IMG/VR virus record: IMGVR_UViG_3300035698_012462 | Span: 1 to 39,045 of that record | DNA length: 39,045 nt | Reading direction: 5' to 3' (one strand) | DNA from: a virus | Shown: in pieces, positions 1,669 to 36,732 of the stretch | How positions within the stretch are numbered: position 1 is the stretch's first letter | Layout of the letters: each line of letters begins with the position of its first letter | The notes under the pieces: generated by a model | Database searches by the model: none | What the model saw: only the letters and a program-made list of their open reading frames with translations | Told to the model about the DNA's origin: nothing | Position numbers and translations under genes: made by a program

Positions 1669-4600
1669 ATGGATGCTATAAATTACGCAGCAATACATTG
1701 CCACTCTATGTTTAGCTCTGACGGAGTAGGCACCGTTGAACAATGGGTTAAGTCCGCAAAGGACAAGGGTCTATATGGTTTGGGGCTTAGTGACCATGGA
1801 AATTTTGGGGCCGCCCTAGAACTTTATCATGTGGGGAAGCGTGAAGAATTTCCAGTAGTTTTGGGTGAAGAATTCTACATAGTGGAAGACCTCGATCTGA
1901 AGGAATATCATCACATTACCGTGTGGTGTAAAAATGCCAAGGGTTATGAGAATCTTTGTAAACTTTCAACCATGTCATTTGGTCAAGTCTATAGAAAACC
2001 AAGAATAACTTATCAAGACCTAGTTTCTCATTGTGAAGGTCTTATAGTGGGGTCTGGTTGTTATATAGGACAAATCAACCATTGTTTGTTGGCCGGAGAA
2101 GAAGAGAAGGCTTTACATTTAACTACCATGTTAAAGAATGCTTTTGGTGACGATTTCTACATGGAGATTATGCCAGCCTATGTTAATAATGACAAGCGGC
2201 TTTCCTTAGAAGGCACAGAAAATATACAGATTAAAATGAACACCCTAATTTTGGAGTGGGCCAAAAAGCATGACATTAAATACATATGTTCATCCGATGC
2301 TCATATGCCAGACTTGAGCATGGAAATTGTACAGCGCATTAAAATGGCCAATTATTCTAGGAGCAAAAAAGAAACGTGGGAATTTGATTATATTTATTAT
2401 CTACGTGACCCAGAAGGATACAAGAAACAGTGGCTTGGAGAGCTTAAAATTACAGAAGATGTTCTCGCGGTTGGTTGTGCCAATACCGTAGAGATCGTAG
2501 ATAAATGTAAAGATTTAAATCTATCTTTTACTGAGCGATTGCCTGGGCTTGATTATGATCGTTACCCATTTTGCAATAAGAGAATGTCCAGTTTAGAGGT
2601 TGTAGAGAAAATGATTGATTATCATGGGCGCATCGATCTAGATAATCCCATTTATGTTAAAAGGTTGGTTAAAGAACTTAAGGTTTTACATAAAAACGGC
2701 ATTATGGATTTGTTGGATTATTTTTTATTACTTGAAGATGTATGCCGCCATGTAAAGTATAATAAACTCACCCTACAGGGGGTGTCTCGTGGCTCTGCTG
2801 GTGGTTCTTTGTTGGCTTATGGTCTTGGGCTTATTGACCTCGATCCGATTAAATTTGACTTGTCGTTCGAGAGATTTATTAATATGGCTCGTATCAAAGG
2901 CGGTACCCTGCCTGATATTGATCTCGATTTTGGCGATCGTAATGTGGTTATTGAATATATTAGGAGTGTTTTTGGCGACGAATACGTGGCTAATTTCGGT
3001 ATTCAACTCACTCTAAAACTAAAGATGGCTCTTAAGGATACTCTGCGGATTCTGCGCCCTGGCATGCCCCAACCCATGGCCGATAGCTATGCCGCTAAAA
3101 TACCATATGTAGATAATGAGTCTCATCTAAATGATAAAGAGACCATGGCCCTATTAGAAGATTCACCAATACTATGGAAATATCTATCAGAATCAAAAAA
3201 CAAAGATGTGCTGGACGGGTTGTTAGGGTCTGTGGGTCAGATGAGGCAATATGGTGTTCACGCTGCTGCCGTGGCTATTAGTCCCACACCTATTAGTAGT
3301 TTCATACCTTTGACAAAGAGAGTCAAAGATAAGTATATGTATACTCAGTATTCCATGGAGTGGTGTAACAAAGCTGGCCTAGTTAAATATGACATACTTG
3401 GATTAACCACTCTTGAAATCATTCAAGAATGTCTTGATCTAATAAAAATAAATCATGGCATAGACATAAAACCTTGGTCATTAGCCCTAGACGATAAAGA
3501 AACATTGGATGCTTTCTGGAAGATGGAAGTTGACACAATTTTTCAGTTTAATACCGATGCTGTTAGAGACGTGTTGAGGGATGCCATTGTTACCGAATTT
3601 AACGATTTAGCAGTGATTAATACTTTGGTTAGACCAGGTACGTTTGACATGGGCATGCACAAAGAGTGGGTTGGTCGTCGTCTTGGGGAGAGACCCATAG
3701 AATATCCACACCATTCATTAGAACCCATTCTTAAAGACACCCTTGGGATTATGCTCTATCAGGAGCAAGTGATGGGGTCTTTGAAGGTACTGGCGGGATA
3801 TTCGGATGAGGAAGCCGACGATATTAGACGAGCCATAGGAAAAAAGAAGATTAGCATCATTAATAAATATGGTGCTGAATTTGCCACTAGGGTGGCAACC
3901 TATCATAAAGACATTGATAAACCTAAAGCAGACGAAATTTGGAAACTTATTGAGGCGTTTGGGCGATATAGTTTTAATAAATCACACAGCATAGGCTATT
4001 CCATTATTTCTTATGTCCAGCAATATCTTAAAGTGCACTATCCTATTGAATATTGGTGTGCAGTATTAATGGCTGAGGATGATTCGGATAAGAAGAGGAT
4101 ACTATATAAGAAAATTAAGGGCTTTATGGCTGGCTATGACATTAATGTGTCTGGCGAAAAATTTTCCATCCATAATAATAAAATCGTTCCACCCCTTAGT
4201 TCTATTAAGTCGGTTGGGGCTGGAGTGGCAGATCACATCAAGAGTCTTAGACCCATTGTATCTTTTGAAGATTTTGCTTCTAGAATTGACAAATCCATCG
4301 TTAAAAAACACATTATGATAGGTATGATCATTGGCGGGTTATTTGAAGCCCTTGAACCCAATTTAACAGAGATAGAGATGATAGGCACATATTACGACAT
4401 GCGTCAGGGGGCCAAAATCAAGAGGGATGGTCAGCCCAACAAGGCTCGTAAGGAATATGAGCGTAAATATCTTACCATGACCAGGGGTGAACTCAACCTA
4501 GAGAAATTGACATTATTACCATTTAATGACATTGATCTTATGGACATGATTCCTTCAGATAAGCGTGAGCATTTTGTGGATTATGAAACAGCCAGGGGAT

Positions 4601-4878
4601 TACCCGACCACCATCCAGTATATTTATTGGGCATGGTTGTTAAATCTCATCACATTAGAGACAAAAATGGCAACCCTATGTTTTTTGCTGATCTCATTAA
4701 TGGTGGGGATACAATTAATCTTACTGTATGGCATTCGTGTGCTAAGATATACAGAGATTTATTCACCAAAGGTAAGATAATCGCCTTCAAAGGTGAAGTT
4801 AATAGATACAACGGTAAATTTTCCATAACTCTTTTAAAAGCACAGGAGATGACAAATGAAACTGCAAGAGCTAGCTAA
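1669..4878 (+). CDS. DNA polymerase, family C (PolIII alpha/DnaE-like) with PHP domain
   Basis: 1069 aa, close to bacterial DnaE length (about 1160). This is the replicative polymerase. The N-terminal PHP domain keeps the metal-site pattern: H10-C-H12, LSDHGN near residue 44, EEFY followed by HH near 80-90, a GSGC segment, and SSDAH near 207. The palm has PDIDLDF with D416 and D418 as catalytic metal ligands and GLVKYDILGL with D575 as the third. Further DnaE blocks are SRGSAGGSL, GVHAAAVAIS, LYQEQVM and FNKSHSIGYS. The last 110 residues fit an OB fold. ATG 1669 has GGGAGG about 7 nt upstream. No separate 3'-5' exonuclease or clamp gene is seen, so the PHP domain may proofread. Confidence 0.95.
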   Translation: MDAINYAAIHCHSMFSSDGVGTVEQWVKSAKDKGLYGLGLSDHGNFGAALELYHVGKREEFPVVLGEEFYIVEDLDLKEYHHITVWCKNAKGYENLCKLSTMSFGQVYRKPRITYQDLVSHCEGLIVGSGCYIGQINHCLLAGEEEKALHLTTMLKNAFGDDFYMEIMPAYVNNDKRLSLEGTENIQIKMNTLILEWAKKHDIKYICSSDAHMPDLSMEIVQRIKMANYSRSKKETWEFDYIYYLRDPEGYKKQWLGELKITEDVLAVGCANTVEIVDKCKDLNLSFTERLPGLDYDRYPFCNKRMSSLEVVEKMIDYHGRIDLDNPIYVKRLVKELKVLHKNGIMDLLDYFLLLEDVCRHVKYNKLTLQGVSRGSAGGSLLAYGLGLIDLDPIKFDLSFERFINMARIKGGTLPDIDLDFGDRNVVIEYIRSVFGDEYVANFGIQLTLKLKMALKDTLRILRPGMPQPMADSYAAKIPYVDNESHLNDKETMALLEDSPILWKYLSESKNKDVLDGLLGSVGQMRQYGVHAAAVAISPTPISSFIPLTKRVKDKYMYTQYSMEWCNKAGLVKYDILGLTTLEIIQECLDLIKINHGIDIKPWSLALDDKETLDAFWKMEVDTIFQFNTDAVRDVLRDAIVTEFNDLAVINTLVRPGTFDMGMHKEWVGRRLGERPIEYPHHSLEPILKDTLGIMLYQEQVMGSLKVLAGYSDEEADDIRRAIGKKKISIINKYGAEFATRVATYHKDIDKPKADEIWKLIEAFGRYSFNKSHSIGYSIISYVQQYLKVHYPIEYWCAVLMAEDDSDKKRILYKKIKGFMAGYDINVSGEKFSIHNNKIVPPLSSIKSVGAGVADHIKSLRPIVSFEDFASRIDKSIVKKHIMIGMIIGGLFEALEPNLTEIEMIGTYYDMRQGAKIKRDGQPNKARKEYERKYLTMTRGELNLEKLTLLPFNDIDLMDMIPSDKREHFVDYETARGLPDHHPVYLLGMVVKSHHIRDKNGNPMFFADLINGGDTINLTVWHSCAKIYRDLFTKGKIIAFKGEVNRYNGKFSITLLKAQEMTNETARAS

Positions 4879-5743: not shown

Positions 5744-6333
5744 CTTGGAAAATTATAAGGTTTTGTTTCTATATTATTACTGGTTTGGTGGTCGTTTGGT
5801 ACATTAATGATTGGTATGATACCAAACCACATCCTGTGTTAGATACTATGGAAATTATTAATAAGGCGGTAAATCCTATTGTGGCTGTTAAGAAGAGGAT
5901 AAAATCCATATTGGACGCTACACCAAAGGACAAACCTCATGATATATCCACGGGATTATCCCCCAAAGGACCCACCGATAACGGAAGCTCTGCTGAAGCA
6001 AGTCTTAAAAATGGTTTTAGTAACGACATACATCTTGACTTGGGTGTTTACAATAGTTTACTTAGTTTGGACGAGAAATACCTCACTCCCAAGATTAGCA
6101 TCGGAATCTCTTTTTTTTCTTATGGTAATTTAATTATTGATAAGTGGCGCTTTGTCAGATTGGGTACAGGAGGAATGGTGAACTCTGGTGTAGATATTAC
6201 AATTTCTCCTATTATGTATAACGTTGGCAATTTAGTGCCAATTTTACGTAATACTTACATACATCCTTACATAGGTTATAACATTACTAATGGACGGCCC
6301 ATCATGGGCATGCAACTTTCTTTATCTTTTTAA
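5740..6333 (+). CDS. Membrane-anchored protein with beta-barrel-like C-terminus
   Basis: 197 aa, not assigned to a family. Residues 5-25 (IIRFCFYIITGLVVVWYIND) form one hydrophobic segment, either a signal anchor or an uncleaved inner-membrane helix. Residues about 60-95 are a polar linker. The last 100 residues alternate hydrophobic and polar positions, with several short candidate strands, and end in GMQLSLSF. A terminal Phe on an alternating strand is the targeting signature of Gram-negative outer-membrane barrels. It could bridge both membranes like a spanin, but it sits among replication genes. ATG overlaps the kinase stop (ATGA). Confidence 0.75.
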   Translation: MTWKIIRFCFYIITGLVVVWYINDWYDTKPHPVLDTMEIINKAVNPIVAVKKRIKSILDATPKDKPHDISTGLSPKGPTDNGSSAEASLKNGFSNDIHLDLGVYNSLLSLDEKYLTPKISIGISFFSYGNLIIDKWRFVRLGTGGMVNSGVDITISPIMYNVGNLVPILRNTYIHPYIGYNITNGRPIMGMQLSLSF

Positions 6334-6346
6334 TTGGAGGTGTAAC

Positions 6347-7201
6347 ATGGATTTGTTTAACGACGATGTATCAGGAGTAGCTGAAGAACTGCAGAAGACT
6401 AAGAGTGAAATCGCTTCAAGTAAGTCGTATGGTGGAGATCGTAAGATTTTTAAATTTGAACTTGGTGAACAGGGTAATCGTGTTCGGGTTCTCCCCCCTC
6501 TGTATGGCAAGAAGTTGCCATGGGAGCATGTAAAGATTCATTTTAATCTGATCGGTTCTAATGGCAAGCAGATGGCGTTATTGTGTGGTATGCTTAAATT
6601 TGATGAGTGTCCTCTGTGTCGTGAAGCAGCCCTCTTTAGAGAGGCTGGGGACAATTTGAAATCGTGGAACGCCATGGCCAAAGATCAGTATATCTATAAT
6701 GTTATTGATCCAGAGGGAGAAGTGGCCCTTATGACGGCTGATCGGAATCTTCAAGAAGAATTGGTTAAGCAATTTGAATATGCCGTGTCTTCTGACGCTG
6801 TGGAATCTGGTCGCGCAGCTGCTTACCCATGGGATTTGAAGAATGGGTTTGATATCAAAATTATTAAAACCAAGGGCCAGAAATCTGGTAAGCAAAAATT
6901 CGCCCCGAATAAATGGGAAGTGCGTCTACTAGCTCCCAAGACCCTAGAAATAGAAGAACTTGAGAAAATGGCAGACAAGATCAATGATTTGACTAAACAA
7001 TATCAGATCTTTAGCCCAGAAGAATTACAGAAAATTCTTGATGGTGAGTTAGATCCATTTGCTAAGAAAGAAGAAACTGTTGTTGAGGCAACAGAGAATA
7101 AAAAAGAAGAAAAGGCAGAAAAGGCAGAAGAAGAAGTTGAAAATACTGCTGACGTGAAGTCCAAAATGAAATCCCTCACCAAGATGGTAGAGGAGGAATA
7201 A
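6347..7201 (+). CDS. Single-stranded DNA-binding protein (T4 gp32-like)
   Basis: 284 aa. It coats ssDNA during replication and recombination. The core starts FKFELGEQGNRVRVLPP. A zinc site of form H-X14-C-X7-C-X2-C (IHFNLIG...LLCGMLKFDECPLC) closely resembles T4 gp32, whose ligands are H-X12-C-X9-C-X2-C. Basic and aromatic residues follow, as in an OB fold. The C-terminal 50 residues are almost all Glu, Lys and Ala and end in VEEE, the acidic tail that recruits partner proteins. ATG 6347 is set by GGAGG 7 nt upstream; a longer in-frame ORF from 6290 overlaps the previous gene. UvsX follows 2 nt later, its usual partner. Confidence 0.85.
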   Translation: MDLFNDDVSGVAEELQKTKSEIASSKSYGGDRKIFKFELGEQGNRVRVLPPLYGKKLPWEHVKIHFNLIGSNGKQMALLCGMLKFDECPLCREAALFREAGDNLKSWNAMAKDQYIYNVIDPEGEVALMTADRNLQEELVKQFEYAVSSDAVESGRAAAYPWDLKNGFDIKIIKTKGQKSGKQKFAPNKWEVRLLAPKTLEIEELEKMADKINDLTKQYQIFSPEELQKILDGELDPFAKKEETVVEATENKKEEKAEKAEEEVENTADVKSKMKSLTKMVEEE

Positions 7202-11991: not shown

Positions 11992-12519
11992 ATGGCAGAA
12001 TCAAAGGCAGAATCAAAGGCAGAATCAAAGGCAGAATCAAAGGCAGAACCAAAACACGATAGGAAGTCTATAGCGCTCCAACAATCTCCTGTTGATAAGG
12101 CTTTGATTGATCAAAACGGAGCATTGCGTGATGCTATTAATGAGAAGACGGATATTTCTTCTTTATTATCTGGTGCCACTGAATGGATGGGTAATTACGG
12201 CATTATCTCTAGCTGGCATTATAATAACATTGTATTAGACTTACTTAGCTCGGTTCCATACTTATATAACGTTGAATTAGAAATAAACACCGAAAAGAGA
12301 TATATAAAATGTGTGGTGTATGTCAACATGTGGTATTTTTTAGGGCGAAAGGATCGATGGCGTCGATTGTGTGAATTGGGGCACTATAAGAGACATATGT
12401 TTGACCGTCTCGCGTTTGTTATGCATGAATATGCCCCTAAATACAATGTGGACGCATCAATTATATATGGAAAACCAAAACGATCAATCTCCGGAGACAA
12501 TACAGACGGTGCCGCATAG
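11992..12519 (+). CDS. Hypothetical protein with AESK repeats, 175 aa
   Basis: I do not recognise the fold. Residues 2-21 are five AESK/AEPK repeats encoded by a perfect 12-bp tandem repeat, giving a charged flexible tail. The rest is rich in Trp and Tyr (WMGNYGIISSWHYNN, MWYFLGRKDRW) and mixed alpha/beta in appearance. It sits directly before the small terminase and overlaps it by 53 nt, so it may belong to the packaging module. ATG 11992 follows GAAAGAGAATAATC, a weak ribosome binding site. Confidence 0.8.
   Translation: MAESKAESKAESKAESKAEPKHDRKSIALQQSPVDKALIDQNGALRDAINEKTDISSLLSGATEWMGNYGIISSWHYNNIVLDLLSSVPYLYNVELEINTEKRYIKCVVYVNMWYFLGRKDRWRRLCELGHYKRHMFDRLAFVMHEYAPKYNVDASIIYGKPKRSISGDNTDGAA
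11995..12054 (+). repeat. 12-bp tandem repeat, four perfect copies and one variant
   Basis: GCAGAATCAAAG occurs four times without a break from 11995 to 12042, then once as GCAGAACCAAAA. The period is four codons, so copy-number change by slippage would alter protein length without a frameshift. Confidence 0.95.
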
Positions 12520-21534: not shown

Positions 21535-22653
21535 CTATTGTCTGTCGATAATGTCGTCGTGGTTTGGACCAGTACCAATAAGTTCAACTGGTAGTCCTGT
21601 TCGTTTTTCAATCATGTCAATAAATGTTTTGACTTTCGGGGTCAACTCGTCCCACGTTTTGGCTTTATAACAATTCCAATCAACATATTGTATAAAATTG
21701 ACCATTAATTTGGTGGCTGACGATACGCGCACAGCATGGGCTAAACCACCCCATGAAAAGGTGAACACACGACGTAGACGTTTAGTTACGGTAGTTAATT
21801 GTTGTTCATAGAGTTTGTCTATTTCTTCTTGTGGCATACCTGCTCTCATTCCAACTTCTGTCCATGTTAATTCTTCCTGATCTGAATAACCAGGACCAGA
21901 GTTACCAACTTCTTTGTTATTTTCAATAATGTTGCCAACTCTAATGGGCGTACTATGTATGTTAAGATAGATATCACCAATTTTATTGAGGGGTGGTGCC
22001 ATATCAGCAATAGCTTGCAATGAATTGGTGGAACGTGATGTACAATAAGGATATTCAATACCATGGTGTATGTCTAGGCCGATGCCTTGTGACACTTCGT
22101 GAAAAGCAGTATAACCACTTCGTAAATAATCATGTAGGTGTGCCACCATATTAGTTAGTATATGTTCTTGCAGTAAATCACTGTAGTCTCTTGCCAACTT
22201 TAATCCTGGTCGTCGTAGAATTTTATCAGCAAGATATGTGCCTGCCCCTTGGCATGTTGAGGCAATAGATTTGGGACCATCAAGACTATTCTCTTCTCTT
22301 GCTTTGTGTTCACTGGTTACTATTCCAGCTCTAGGGTGTATCCATAGGTATTGCGATCCCATTTTGCATGCTTCTATTTCTTTTAGAAGTTGTTCAATTG
22401 TGAATATGGCGGTTGGTCCAATAAATACATGGGGGTTATATGTATCGTCTATTTTATGCATATATGCCCCAGACGGCAAAACTTTGGCGATAAATACGTC
22501 ATCGTCCTGTCGGTATGTGTGTCCGGCGTTTGGAGTGTTAGTGGAGCAAAGAACCTCTGGACGGTATTTTTCAGTGAGATAACAGTACATCTTGGCCTTA
22601 CCAGAACTGCCCGCGAATGCGTCCACCAACATGTTGAATTTTGTTTTTTGCAT
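21535..22653 (-). CDS. purZ: PurZ: N6-succino-2-amino-2'-deoxyadenylate synthase (Z-genome enzyme)
   Basis: 372 aa paralogue of adenylosuccinate synthetase (PurA). PurZ joins aspartate to dGMP; host PurB then releases 2-aminoadenine dNMP (dZMP). The PurA loop GDEGKGK is replaced by AGSSGKAK, with S16 where PurA has its catalytic Asp, the recognised PurZ hallmark as I recall it. TPNAGHTY keeps the catalytic His (H45). Other PurA/PurZ blocks are AKVLPSG, STCQGAG, YPYCTSR, STPIRVG, SDQEELTW, TVTKRLRRVF and a final LIGTGP. Bacterial PurA is about 430 aa; the shorter length fits phage PurZ. Start ATG 22653 has GGGGTG upstream. It heads a short minus-strand operon from the divergent spacer. Confidence 0.93.
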   Translation of the reverse strand: MQKTKFNMLVDAFAGSSGKAKMYCYLTEKYRPEVLCSTNTPNAGHTYRQDDDVFIAKVLPSGAYMHKIDDTYNPHVFIGPTAIFTIEQLLKEIEACKMGSQYLWIHPRAGIVTSEHKAREENSLDGPKSIASTCQGAGTYLADKILRRPGLKLARDYSDLLQEHILTNMVAHLHDYLRSGYTAFHEVSQGIGLDIHHGIEYPYCTSRSTNSLQAIADMAPPLNKIGDIYLNIHSTPIRVGNIIENNKEVGNSGPGYSDQEELTWTEVGMRAGMPQEEIDKLYEQQLTTVTKRLRRVFTFSWGGLAHAVRVSSATKLMVNFIQYVDWNCYKAKTWDELTPKVKTFIDMIEKRTGLPVELIGTGPNHDDIIDRQ

Positions 22654-22741
22654 ATTTCACCCCTTTGTGTAAAATAGTTTAGCATGATGGTGATGCGAAC
22701 AATAATGTTTATACTAATTTATTATGGGCGCAAGGATGAAC

Positions 22742-22747
22742 TATAAT
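22742..22747 (+). promoter_or_regulatory. Candidate -10 box TATAAT
   Basis: Perfect consensus hexamer. The predicted transcript would start at about 22754, exactly at the first arm of the inverted repeat 22753-22777. The -35 region is weak, so it may need the phage sigma factor encoded at 25713 or an activator. Confidence 0.35.
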
Positions 22748-22752
22748 GGGGG

Positions 22753-22777
22753 CATGTTCTTTGACAGCCTGCCCTTA
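22753..22777 (+). repeat. Upstream arm of long-range inverted repeat
   Basis: CATGTTCTTTGACAGCC followed by TGCCCTTA. It is complementary to 23142-23166: 21 of 25 bases match as DNA, and as RNA two of the four differences become G-U pairs. The copy lies at the predicted 5' end of the mRNA for the gene at 22795. Confidence 0.8.
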
Positions 22778-22794
22778 TAAAAAAGGAGAACACC

Positions 22795-23130
22795 ATGAAA
22801 AGAAGGACCAGAACTTGTCCTCATTATAAAGAGCTTTATCTTAAAGAGAAAGCCAAAAATCTTCAATTGAAGGATGAATATAAAGCGACACAATATAAAG
22901 AACCAGAGCCCATGTATACTAAGCCTACTACTAGTTATAATTATACATCAAAATATGATCTGGCTCCGGTTGGTTTTGATAAAATTACTGGACAAACACA
23001 TAAAGCGTGGTGTATTCAGACAGAATGTGGTAATGTTGAGTGGTTCCCAAAAAGTCAGTGCTGTTTAGCCGGTCCAAATACCATGATGGTACCAAGGTGG
23101 TTACTTTCTGAAAAACACATGAGCGCTTAA
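22795..23130 (+). CDS. Hypothetical protein, 111 aa, enclosed by the inverted repeat
   Basis: Not recognised. AAAAAAGGAG lies 6 nt before ATG 22795. The N-terminal 30 residues are basic (MKRRTRTC, LKEKAKNLQLK), the middle is Tyr-, Pro- and Thr-rich, and Cys residues at CIQTECG and SQCCLAG could bind metal. It is the first gene of the plus-strand island and lies between the two arms of the repeat, so its mRNA would form the loop. Confidence 0.75.
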   Translation: MKRRTRTCPHYKELYLKEKAKNLQLKDEYKATQYKEPEPMYTKPTTSYNYTSKYDLAPVGFDKITGQTHKAWCIQTECGNVEWFPKSQCCLAGPNTMMVPRWLLSEKHMSA

Positions 23131-23141
23131 AAACTACTAAT

Positions 23142-23166
23142 TAAGGGCGGGCTTTCAAAGGACATA
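23142..23166 (+). repeat. Downstream arm of long-range inverted repeat, covers endonuclease ribosome binding site
   Basis: TAAGGGCGGGC followed by TTTCAAAGGACATA. It contains AAAGGA (23157-23162), the ribosome binding site of the endonuclease ATG at 23173. Pairing with 22753-22777 would hide that site. See the matching finding. Confidence 0.8.
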
Positions 23167-23172
23167 ATAATT

Positions 23173-24579
23173 ATGCCACAGTGTAAATGGTGTCAAAAAC
23201 AGTTTGAACCATCTAAATTCAACCCCAAGAAAAAATACTGTTGTAAGTCTTGTGGTAAAAAGGCTTACATGAAAGAATATAACCAGAGTGGTGCTGGCAT
23301 TAGGAAGAATCTTGGCCGAAGAATATGTGGTGGATGTCACAAGGAGACTAACGATTTAGCTAGAGACGAAACATATGGCGCTTTATGTAAAATCTGTCGA
23401 AATGGTCTGAAGGAGGGTCGTAAGCCAGCCACTAGTCTATATAGTAATATTGGTTCATGTTTGCACGGGCGCGATTGGTGGATAGGACGTAGGTTTGGGA
23501 AATTTGAAATTGTTGGTGTTCCTGCTGATATACTCTATTATGGGCAGGGTACAGAGACCAAGGTAACGGTAAAATGCCAAAGGGGGCATTTATCACAGCA
23601 AGAAGTTAGGCAGTTGGGTGGTAACTGCGCTCAATGTACCGTTGACAGTGAGAATAAGCAAAAGGCTTTTGAACTAGTGGACATACCCCATGCAGCTTCC
23701 TTCGAGGAATGGAAAGAATGGCTTGAGGGGCATACAGATTTGAAATTGTTGGAATCTCCAGAAGAATATTGGTCAAAGGGTCAGAATATACGTATAAAAC
23801 TATTATGCTGGTGTGGGAGAATGTGGGAACCCCGATGGAACGATGTAACATCAAAGAGAATAGTCTCCTGTGGCTGCGTTAATAGGTCTTCGAAGCCTGT
23901 GGACCAAATTATCGAGCACATTGAGTCTTTGGGTTTTACAGTGGAAAGGGAAAAACCGTTTGACGAGTTTCAAGCGGACATATTCATAAAAGAAAAGAAT
24001 CTAGTTATAGAGTTTGATGGCCTATATTGGCATTATAAGGATATTAATGATTTTAGGAAATATAATACCTATATGAAGTATTGTCATGAATATATGGGTA
24101 TATATGAGGATGAATGGAATGCTAGCCGACATACGGTATTTAAAATGCTTGATGAACGACTCGTGGGCAATTCATCATTAATGCCTAAAGTGGAATTTTC
24201 AACATTATATAGAGATGAATACACTTCATATCGATTAGACAGCATTGACAACATTCTGGTGTCTATAGATATAGATGTGAATGGTGTTATTGTGAATTTT
24301 ACTAGGACCCATCTATGGGATAAAATTCTTATGAAGGATTTGTGGGCTGCAATTTTAGAAACAAGGGATAATAGGGAATACACTGTTGTCCTTGATAATC
24401 GTAAGAATGATAGGTGGGTTTTTGAATTATTGGGATTCAAGAAGGTGTGGGATGTGGCCCCAAAATTGTGGTGGATTGATGGTCAACGACGCATAAAAGA
24501 TGACGATAAAAGTAATGTTAGAGAGGGTTGGCAAGAACTTCATGACTGCGGACACCAACAATATGAATATAAAATTTAG
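23173..24579 (+). CDS. Vsr-like multi-zinc-finger endonuclease, probable homing enzyme
   Basis: 468 aa. The N-terminal 220 residues carry several Cys pairs (CKWC, CCKSC, CGGC, CKIC, CAQC, LLCWCG, CGCV) that read as zinc-finger DNA-binding modules. Around residues 255-320 is a Vsr/PD-(D/E)XK-type nuclease: FQADIFIKEKNLVIEFDG, then LYWHY, and MGIYEDEW, matching the 'DI...iaiEf.G.YWH...EdEW' pattern of phage homing endonucleases related to very-short-patch repair nucleases. The last 120 residues form another domain. No intron or intein is seen nearby, so it would be free-standing. ATG 23173 has AAAGGA within the inverted repeat. Confidence 0.78.
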   Translation: MPQCKWCQKQFEPSKFNPKKKYCCKSCGKKAYMKEYNQSGAGIRKNLGRRICGGCHKETNDLARDETYGALCKICRNGLKEGRKPATSLYSNIGSCLHGRDWWIGRRFGKFEIVGVPADILYYGQGTETKVTVKCQRGHLSQQEVRQLGGNCAQCTVDSENKQKAFELVDIPHAASFEEWKEWLEGHTDLKLLESPEEYWSKGQNIRIKLLCWCGRMWEPRWNDVTSKRIVSCGCVNRSSKPVDQIIEHIESLGFTVEREKPFDEFQADIFIKEKNLVIEFDGLYWHYKDINDFRKYNTYMKYCHEYMGIYEDEWNASRHTVFKMLDERLVGNSSLMPKVEFSTLYRDEYTSYRLDSIDNILVSIDIDVNGVIVNFTRTHLWDKILMKDLWAAILETRDNREYTVVLDNRKNDRWVFELLGFKKVWDVAPKLWWIDGQRRIKDDDKSNVREGWQELHDCGHQQYEYKI

Positions 24580-36245: not shown

Positions 36246-36263
36246 TTTCCCTCCTCCCTTATT

Positions 36264-36506
36264 TCACTTTGTCAACATTCCCATCATTGATTTTAATCTG
36301 TAGTAGCATGCCGCCCCCTTAGACTTGAAGAGTTCGTCTGGCATATATATATGCCCATAACGTAAATCATTTTTTATGTCATATTGCTTCCACATGTACT
36401 CTTCATAAGGTGGTTCACAACCTAGGCACATAAAAAGGGATTTTTTAGGTCTTTTATGTTTTGTGGACGGCCAATACCAGAATTCTTCTGTGTCTTTATA
36501 AGCCAT
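36264..36506 (-). CDS. Hypothetical protein, 80 aa
   Basis: Not recognised. GGGAGG lies 7 nt before ATG 36506 (GTG 36509 in frame is less likely). It is rich in Tyr, Trp and Lys, with FMCLGCEPP giving one CxxC. Small basic phage protein of the early type. Confidence 0.68.
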   Translation of the reverse strand: MAYKDTEEFWYWPSTKHKRPKKSLFMCLGCEPPYEEYMWKQYDIKNDLRYGHIYMPDELFKSKGAACYYRLKSMMGMLTK

Positions 36507-36516
36507 CACACCTCCC

Positions 36517-36732
36517 TTATTTCACTTGGTCATTAACGTATTTAATGTGATTTTCTATTCGTCTTTGTCCCTCTGCACTTGCTTTGGCGTAGCAGTCAGG
36601 ACAACTCATCTTTCCTGTTCCATAAATCATGCACCAATCAATGTGATTTTTTGAACATGCCCCGATTGTAAATATTACTTCTTTTTTTTCTTTACTACAG
36701 AAGTCGCATACTAGTTTTGTTGGATTGCTCAC
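36517..36732 (-). CDS. Small zinc-finger protein, 71 aa (ClpX-type zinc-binding look)
   Basis: LVCDFCSKEKKEVIFTIGA followed by CPDC recalls the four-Cys zinc domain at the N-terminus of ClpX, but without an ATPase. GTG 36732 is preferred: CCGGAGG lies 4 nt upstream, whereas the in-frame ATG at 36753 overlaps the preceding mini-gene and has no site. A decoy or adaptor of the ClpX kind is only a thought from the motif. Confidence 0.68.
   Translation of the reverse strand: MSNPTKLVCDFCSKEKKEVIFTIGACSKNHIDWCMIYGTGKMSCPDCYAKASAEGQRRIENHIKYVNDQVK

Follow-up and report, generated by a model that had tools for sequence, protein, structure and literature searches.

The RNase III processing stalks of pre-rRNA consist of a stem of about 25-30 bp around a whole functional unit, and the ribosome-site locks known in phages are mostly short local hairpins. 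Hairpins at the ribosome site of homing endonuclease genes have been described in phages T4 and Aeh1: I-TevI, I-TevII, I-TevIII, segB, and mobE (PMC2988022). In S. aureus, the 5'-UTR of icaR pairs with its 3'-UTR (PMC3868564), and a long-distance interaction in RNA phages of the MS2 type couples translation of the coat gene to the start of the replicase gene (PMC9894550 and references therein).

The locus considered here is located in a 39-kb stretch of viral DNA (IMG/VR virus record IMGVR_UViG_3300035698_012462, positions 1-39,045; the whole stretch is referred to as the window), in which two complementary arms bracket the gene for a 111-aa protein. As in the T4 and Aeh1 hairpins, the predicted RNA pairing in the window covers the ribosome-binding site of a putative homing endonuclease gene carried by a phage; unlike these hairpins, a different gene lies between the arms, which are separated by ~365 nt, the stem goes with this small gene and not with the endonuclease, and no inner promoter is evident. 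As in icaR, a long-range duplex links the sequences on either side of a single coding region and is located at a Shine-Dalgarno sequence, with a predicted block of initiation; however, icaR covers its own Shine-Dalgarno sequence, whereas the site of the enclosed gene is here free in the loop and that of the next gene is covered. The similarity to MS2 is that distant upstream RNA would block the start of a gene located downstream; the lock in that case is opened by translation of the upstream gene, whereas both arms are here outside the upstream ORF, and, therefore, translation of the small gene is not expected to open the stem. Although a stem of similar length also encloses a whole unit in the pre-rRNA stalks, the enclosed unit is here a protein gene, and its processing is hypothetical. 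We regard as evenly balanced the proposal that the small gene is surrounded by a long-range mRNA stem that hinders translation of whichever gene follows.

Gene neighborhood and the two arms

The genes of the window include purZ, DNA polymerase III alpha, terminase, portal, and sigma factor. purZ (21535-22653, minus strand; phrog_1211, 2e-45) is the divergent neighbor of the operon under study and was used for finding relatives. This gene of the 2-aminoadenine pathway co-occurs with DNA polymerase III alpha (1669-4878), and none of the window genes scanned was recognized as a DpoZ-type polymerase. Elsewhere in the window, a 27-nt direct repeat (89%; TCCCTCCTCCCTTATTTCACTT) at 36248-36274 and 36506-36532, upstream of small minus-strand genes, possibly corresponds to early promoters or a common leader, and a 12-bp unit (GGCAGAATCAAA) is present in tandem copies at 11994-12053, at the start of an ORF.

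The operon to the right of purZ consists of a promoter (TATAATGGGGGCATG) at 22742, the small gene, the endonuclease, a sugar nucleotidyltransferase, and a cupin, in this order. The inferred promoter (-10 and start, 22742-22756, plus strand) has a weak -35 and a predicted transcription start at ~22754, and TATAATGGGGGCATG is the only zero-mismatch match within the window. The 111-aa protein (22795-23130, plus strand) contains a C-terminal WFPKSQC..VPRWL domain assigned to phrog_8580, a family without known function; its gene is preceded by a Shine-Dalgarno-like AAAGGAG (22782-22788, plus strand). The domain (W[FLW]PKS[QE].. VP.WL) was also found at L002 6085-6426, L019 1590-1787, and L035 1432-1674, with unrelated N-termini.

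The next gene (23173-24579, plus strand) encodes a putative free-standing homing endonuclease of 468 aa (phrog_559, 7e-15; phrog_3339, 1e-11; phage HNH/homing endonuclease families) with a zinc-ribbon N-terminus and a weakly seen REase/Vsr-like C-terminal part, and a search against solved structures with this protein gave no match. This endonuclease family adjoins purZ in three phages (window 23173-24579; L002 6513-7904; L038 1461-3020), and its order and orientation beside purZ differ among them, which fits a free-standing mobile endonuclease targeting near purZ. The sugar nucleotidyltransferase (GMP type; 24500-25390, plus strand) matched PF00483 (6e-24) and, below the cut-off, TIGR01479 (8e-40); it and the cupin, which together span 24500-25716, resemble the two halves of GMP-PMI, here as separate overlapping genes.

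The first-pass annotation had claimed complementarity between 22753-22777 (5' arm, plus strand; CATGTTCTTTGACAGCCTGCCCTTA) and 23142-23166 (3' arm, plus strand; TAAGGGCGGGCTTTCAAAGGACATA), and direct reading of the sequence bore this out: 21 of the 25 positions pair as DNA and 23 as RNA. The arms differ as DNA at four positions, two of which become G-U in the sense RNA; the other two stay unpaired, as a terminal C-A and an internal C-U. All coordinates in the annotation were also right. TATAAT is at 22742-22747, the 111-aa ORF is between the arms, and the endonuclease Shine-Dalgarno sequence (AAAGGA; 23157-23162, plus strand) is inside the 3' arm, which starts 11 nt past the stop codon of the 111-aa gene. 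That the 5' arm begins at the transcription start predicted from TATAAT was likewise supported. No further copy of either arm was present in the window with up to three mismatches allowed, and the arm pattern gave zero matches in viral contigs. A search of Rfam 15 with window 22400-23600 and L002 5900-6700 returned nothing significant above the gathering score, and a group I/II intron or known riboswitch, having no Rfam match, was rejected.

Relatives and the gene to which the repeat belongs

No near relative of the region at the DNA level was found in the phage collection, no close homologue of the small protein or endonuclease of the window was found among INPHARED phages, and scans of genome contigs with terminase and purZ gave nothing useful. 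Comparisons were possible with two phages: IMG/VR contig 3300035698_007134 (L002 for the locus and G001 for the genome) and 3300035698_013459 (G019). The former has a 75% identical purZ and gene-by-gene synteny across most of the window, and the endonuclease homologues of the two phages are 32 and 33% identical, respectively, to that of the window.

The order in L002 is promoter (TATAATGGGAGTATG), endonuclease, small gene, nucleotidyltransferase, and cupin. Its small protein (6085-6426, minus strand; 113 aa) is 37% identical to the 111-aa protein and gave only weak fragments among INPHARED phages. A perfect inverted repeat of 27 nt (6460-6486 and 6046-6072) brackets the gene; with added G-U and A-U pairing, it reaches 31 RNA pairs (-49.4 kcal/mol). 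A gap of 12 nt separates the stop codon from the 3' arm. The stem abuts the start of the sugar nucleotidyltransferase, and not that of the endonuclease; the latter precedes the small gene, immediately following the TATAATGGGRGYATG promoter, and has ordinary flanks (-20.4) with no such repeat. The arms of L002 are unrelated in sequence to those of the window and cannot be aligned with them; among the loci examined, they were found in that contig only.

The endonuclease ortholog next to purZ in G019 shares the N-terminal zinc ribbon (flank pairing, -22.5), and no small gene, nucleotidyltransferase, or repeat was present there. A flanking repeat was also absent at two more distant proteins with the C-terminal domain, a different 80-aa protein encoded elsewhere in G019 and one in L019. 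L006, L007, and L017 have an inverted repeat (18/20) close to purZ, which was rejected as a counterpart because it is inside coding sequence and does not flank a gene.

Since the repeat is located at the small gene in L002 and is absent at the endonuclease in both L002 and G019, the structure travels with the small gene. Nor is the repeat a general feature of the C-terminal domain, given the proteins of G019 and L019 that lack it. The first-pass annotation had asked whether relatives keep the pairing by compensating changes; complementarity persists in L002 with entirely different letters, and no relative close enough to align the arms was found. Complementarity kept despite a complete turnover of letters gives indirect support for a conserved RNA structure, and the bracketing repeats are probably a real, selected RNA structure belonging to the small gene, of which there are only two instances (the window and L002).

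The motif TATAATGGGRGYATG beside purZ is common to the window (22742-22756) and L002 (7916-7902, as TATAATGGGAGTATG, in the same place), with an ATG at the predicted transcription start. In L002, this ATG starts the endonuclease, which would therefore be leaderless, while the mRNA of the window would open with a leaderless 8-codon ORF (22754-22780, plus strand; MFFDSLPL and a stop codon). This possible ORF coincides with the 5' arm and may be due to chance; an 11-codon ORF, MYFERRQIFLD, lies over the arm of L002. Both ORFs are conceivable leader peptides whose translation would open the stem.

Alternative explanations

The repeats may instead matter as DNA, with the small gene being a mobile or invertible module with terminal inverted repeats (ends for recombination or transposition, or a by-product of insertion). 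The repeat-bounded unit precedes the endonuclease in the window and follows it in L002, indicating that the two exchanged places, and the L002 repeat is perfect, both of which would suit such a cassette. On the other hand, the arms of the two phages are unrelated, and, thus, there is no common site for a recombinase or transposase; the sole enclosed gene encodes a small protein without a recombinase match, and the unit contains no transposase; the arms had no additional copies in the window, viral contigs, or loci examined; no clear target-site duplication was visible by eye in the window or L002; and the gene orientation is identical in both phages. Pairing is also better in the sense than in the antisense strand (-37.0 vs -29.2 in the window and -49.4 vs -45.8 in L002), as would be expected if the RNA of the coding strand is conserved; this is a weak pointer to RNA, and the bias comes from a handful of G-U pairs. 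We consider the DNA-level explanation rather unlikely.

A second alternative retains the RNA stem and assigns it to processing: the duplex of 24-31 bp would be cut on both strands by RNase III, as in the pre-rRNA stalks, which would free the small-gene message from the rest of the operon transcript and detach or destabilize the downstream part. The length and near-perfect pairing suit an RNase III substrate, the loop contains exactly one gene in both phages, and the icaR duplex between the 5'- and 3'-UTRs at the Shine-Dalgarno sequence both blocks translation and is a substrate of RNase III (PMC3868564). However, processing does not need the overlap with the next ribosome-binding site, and we judge this explanation unlikely. 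The sequence is entirely consistent with processing, which cannot be separated from occlusion on this basis and may act together with it, as in icaR (PMC3868564).

Complementarity in the window could also be accidental, with the L002 repeat alone being real or likewise accidental. When the whole window was shuffled with dinucleotides preserved, the best pair with a gap of at most 500 nt attained 21/25 as DNA in 4 of 100 shuffles and 23/25 as RNA in 54 of 100, and, thus, the bare pairing count is weak or marginal against the whole window. Restriction of the test to the flanks, however, gave a duplex of -37.8 kcal/mol in the window that was matched by none of 2000 shuffles, and 0/2000 was also obtained for L002. 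Every gene of at least 60 aa was ranked by the energy of the duplex that its 100 upstream nt could form with its 60 downstream nt. Of the 54 genes in the window, the 111-aa gene came first (-45.1; runner-up, -36.2), as did the small gene in G001 (-54.2; runner-up, -34.3); the best flank pairing among 226 genes of other low-GC phages was -34.6. Random placement at equal spacing matched the observed pairing in 4 of 6000 trials for the window and 0 of 6000 for L002. Chance is opposed mainly by the finding that one and the same gene stands out in both genomes, and we regard an accidental origin as quite improbable.

The weakest explanation is that proposed by the first-pass annotation, a control of the T4 type in which the structure silences the endonuclease specifically and a later promoter frees the site; it fits the window alone, where the Shine-Dalgarno sequence of the putative homing endonuclease is within the 3' arm as in the occluded sites of I-TevI, I-TevII, I-TevIII, segB, and Aeh1 mobE (PMC2988022), fails on the relatives, and, with T4 structures being local hairpins, is disfavored to the point of being very improbable. 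The masking duplex that loops out the 111-aa gene was upheld by computation as stable (-37 kcal/mol), but not as a device for endonuclease control: the endonuclease has no stem in L002 or G019, and the stem of L002 is on the opposite side of the small gene. Relatives with the same genes and no complementarity, named in that annotation as evidence against its reading, were thus found in part (the ordinary flanks of the L002 endonuclease and the repeat-free G019 endonuclease), and an endonuclease-specific lock was rejected as a general explanation. The shorter late transcript that was to free the endonuclease site is left without a candidate promoter because no sigma-70-like site was detected between the arms on the plus strand (22780-23172), a scan outside of which a phage-specific promoter type would fall.

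Predicted occlusion and its meaning

Under the preferred reading, occlusion of the following gene by a gene-enclosing stem, the two arms would join as a long-range stem in the plus-strand mRNA. The small gene would be readable with the stem closed, its own Shine-Dalgarno sequence staying within the loop, because 17-33 nt separate the 5' arm from its start codon and 11-12 nt separate its stop codon from the 3' arm. The next gene (the endonuclease in the window and the nucleotidyltransferase in L002) would be little translated unless the stem was opened, cut, or not yet formed; opening could occur via ribosomes on the leaderless 8-codon ORF, RNase III, or the timing of transcription.

Thermodynamic prediction, which leaves out co-transcriptional folding, gave the arms of the window transcript a mean pairing probability of 0.94 across the ensemble. 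The computed unpaired probability of the endonuclease Shine-Dalgarno sequence decreased from 0.65 without the 5' arm to 0.00 with it, and that of the L002 nucleotidyltransferase from 0.56 to 0.04; this occlusion was unchanged in both phages when the small ORF was held open as if covered by ribosomes. The Shine-Dalgarno region of the 111-aa gene (22781-22788) was predicted to be ~0.73 unpaired with the stem formed. Several observations count against this reading. In L002, the 27-bp core stops before the Shine-Dalgarno sequence, which is covered by the weaker predicted extension pairs alone; the fold as a whole was not exceptional in the window (z, -1.6), unlike that of L002 (z, -8.0); and the more distant proteins of G019 and L019 have no repeat. 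The analysis shows the repeats around homologous genes in two phages, their sequence turnover and statistical strength, and a computed loss of access to the Shine-Dalgarno sequence. From these, we infer that the stem would form inside cells and would serve to reduce or postpone expression of the downstream gene.

A more general proposal, which we put forward tentatively and with considerable doubt, is a portable control module: a small gene bounded by inverted repeats that would loop its own mRNA segment and silence the next gene at any place in an operon, its arms being renewed in sequence with complementarity kept. If a gene-spanning stem of this kind is true, the enclosed gene would be free and the next closed, and the relative output of neighbors would be set on one transcript; one small module could silence whichever gene comes behind it. 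A search for long inverted repeats bracketing single genes would then reveal RNA control that is invisible to covariance-model libraries.
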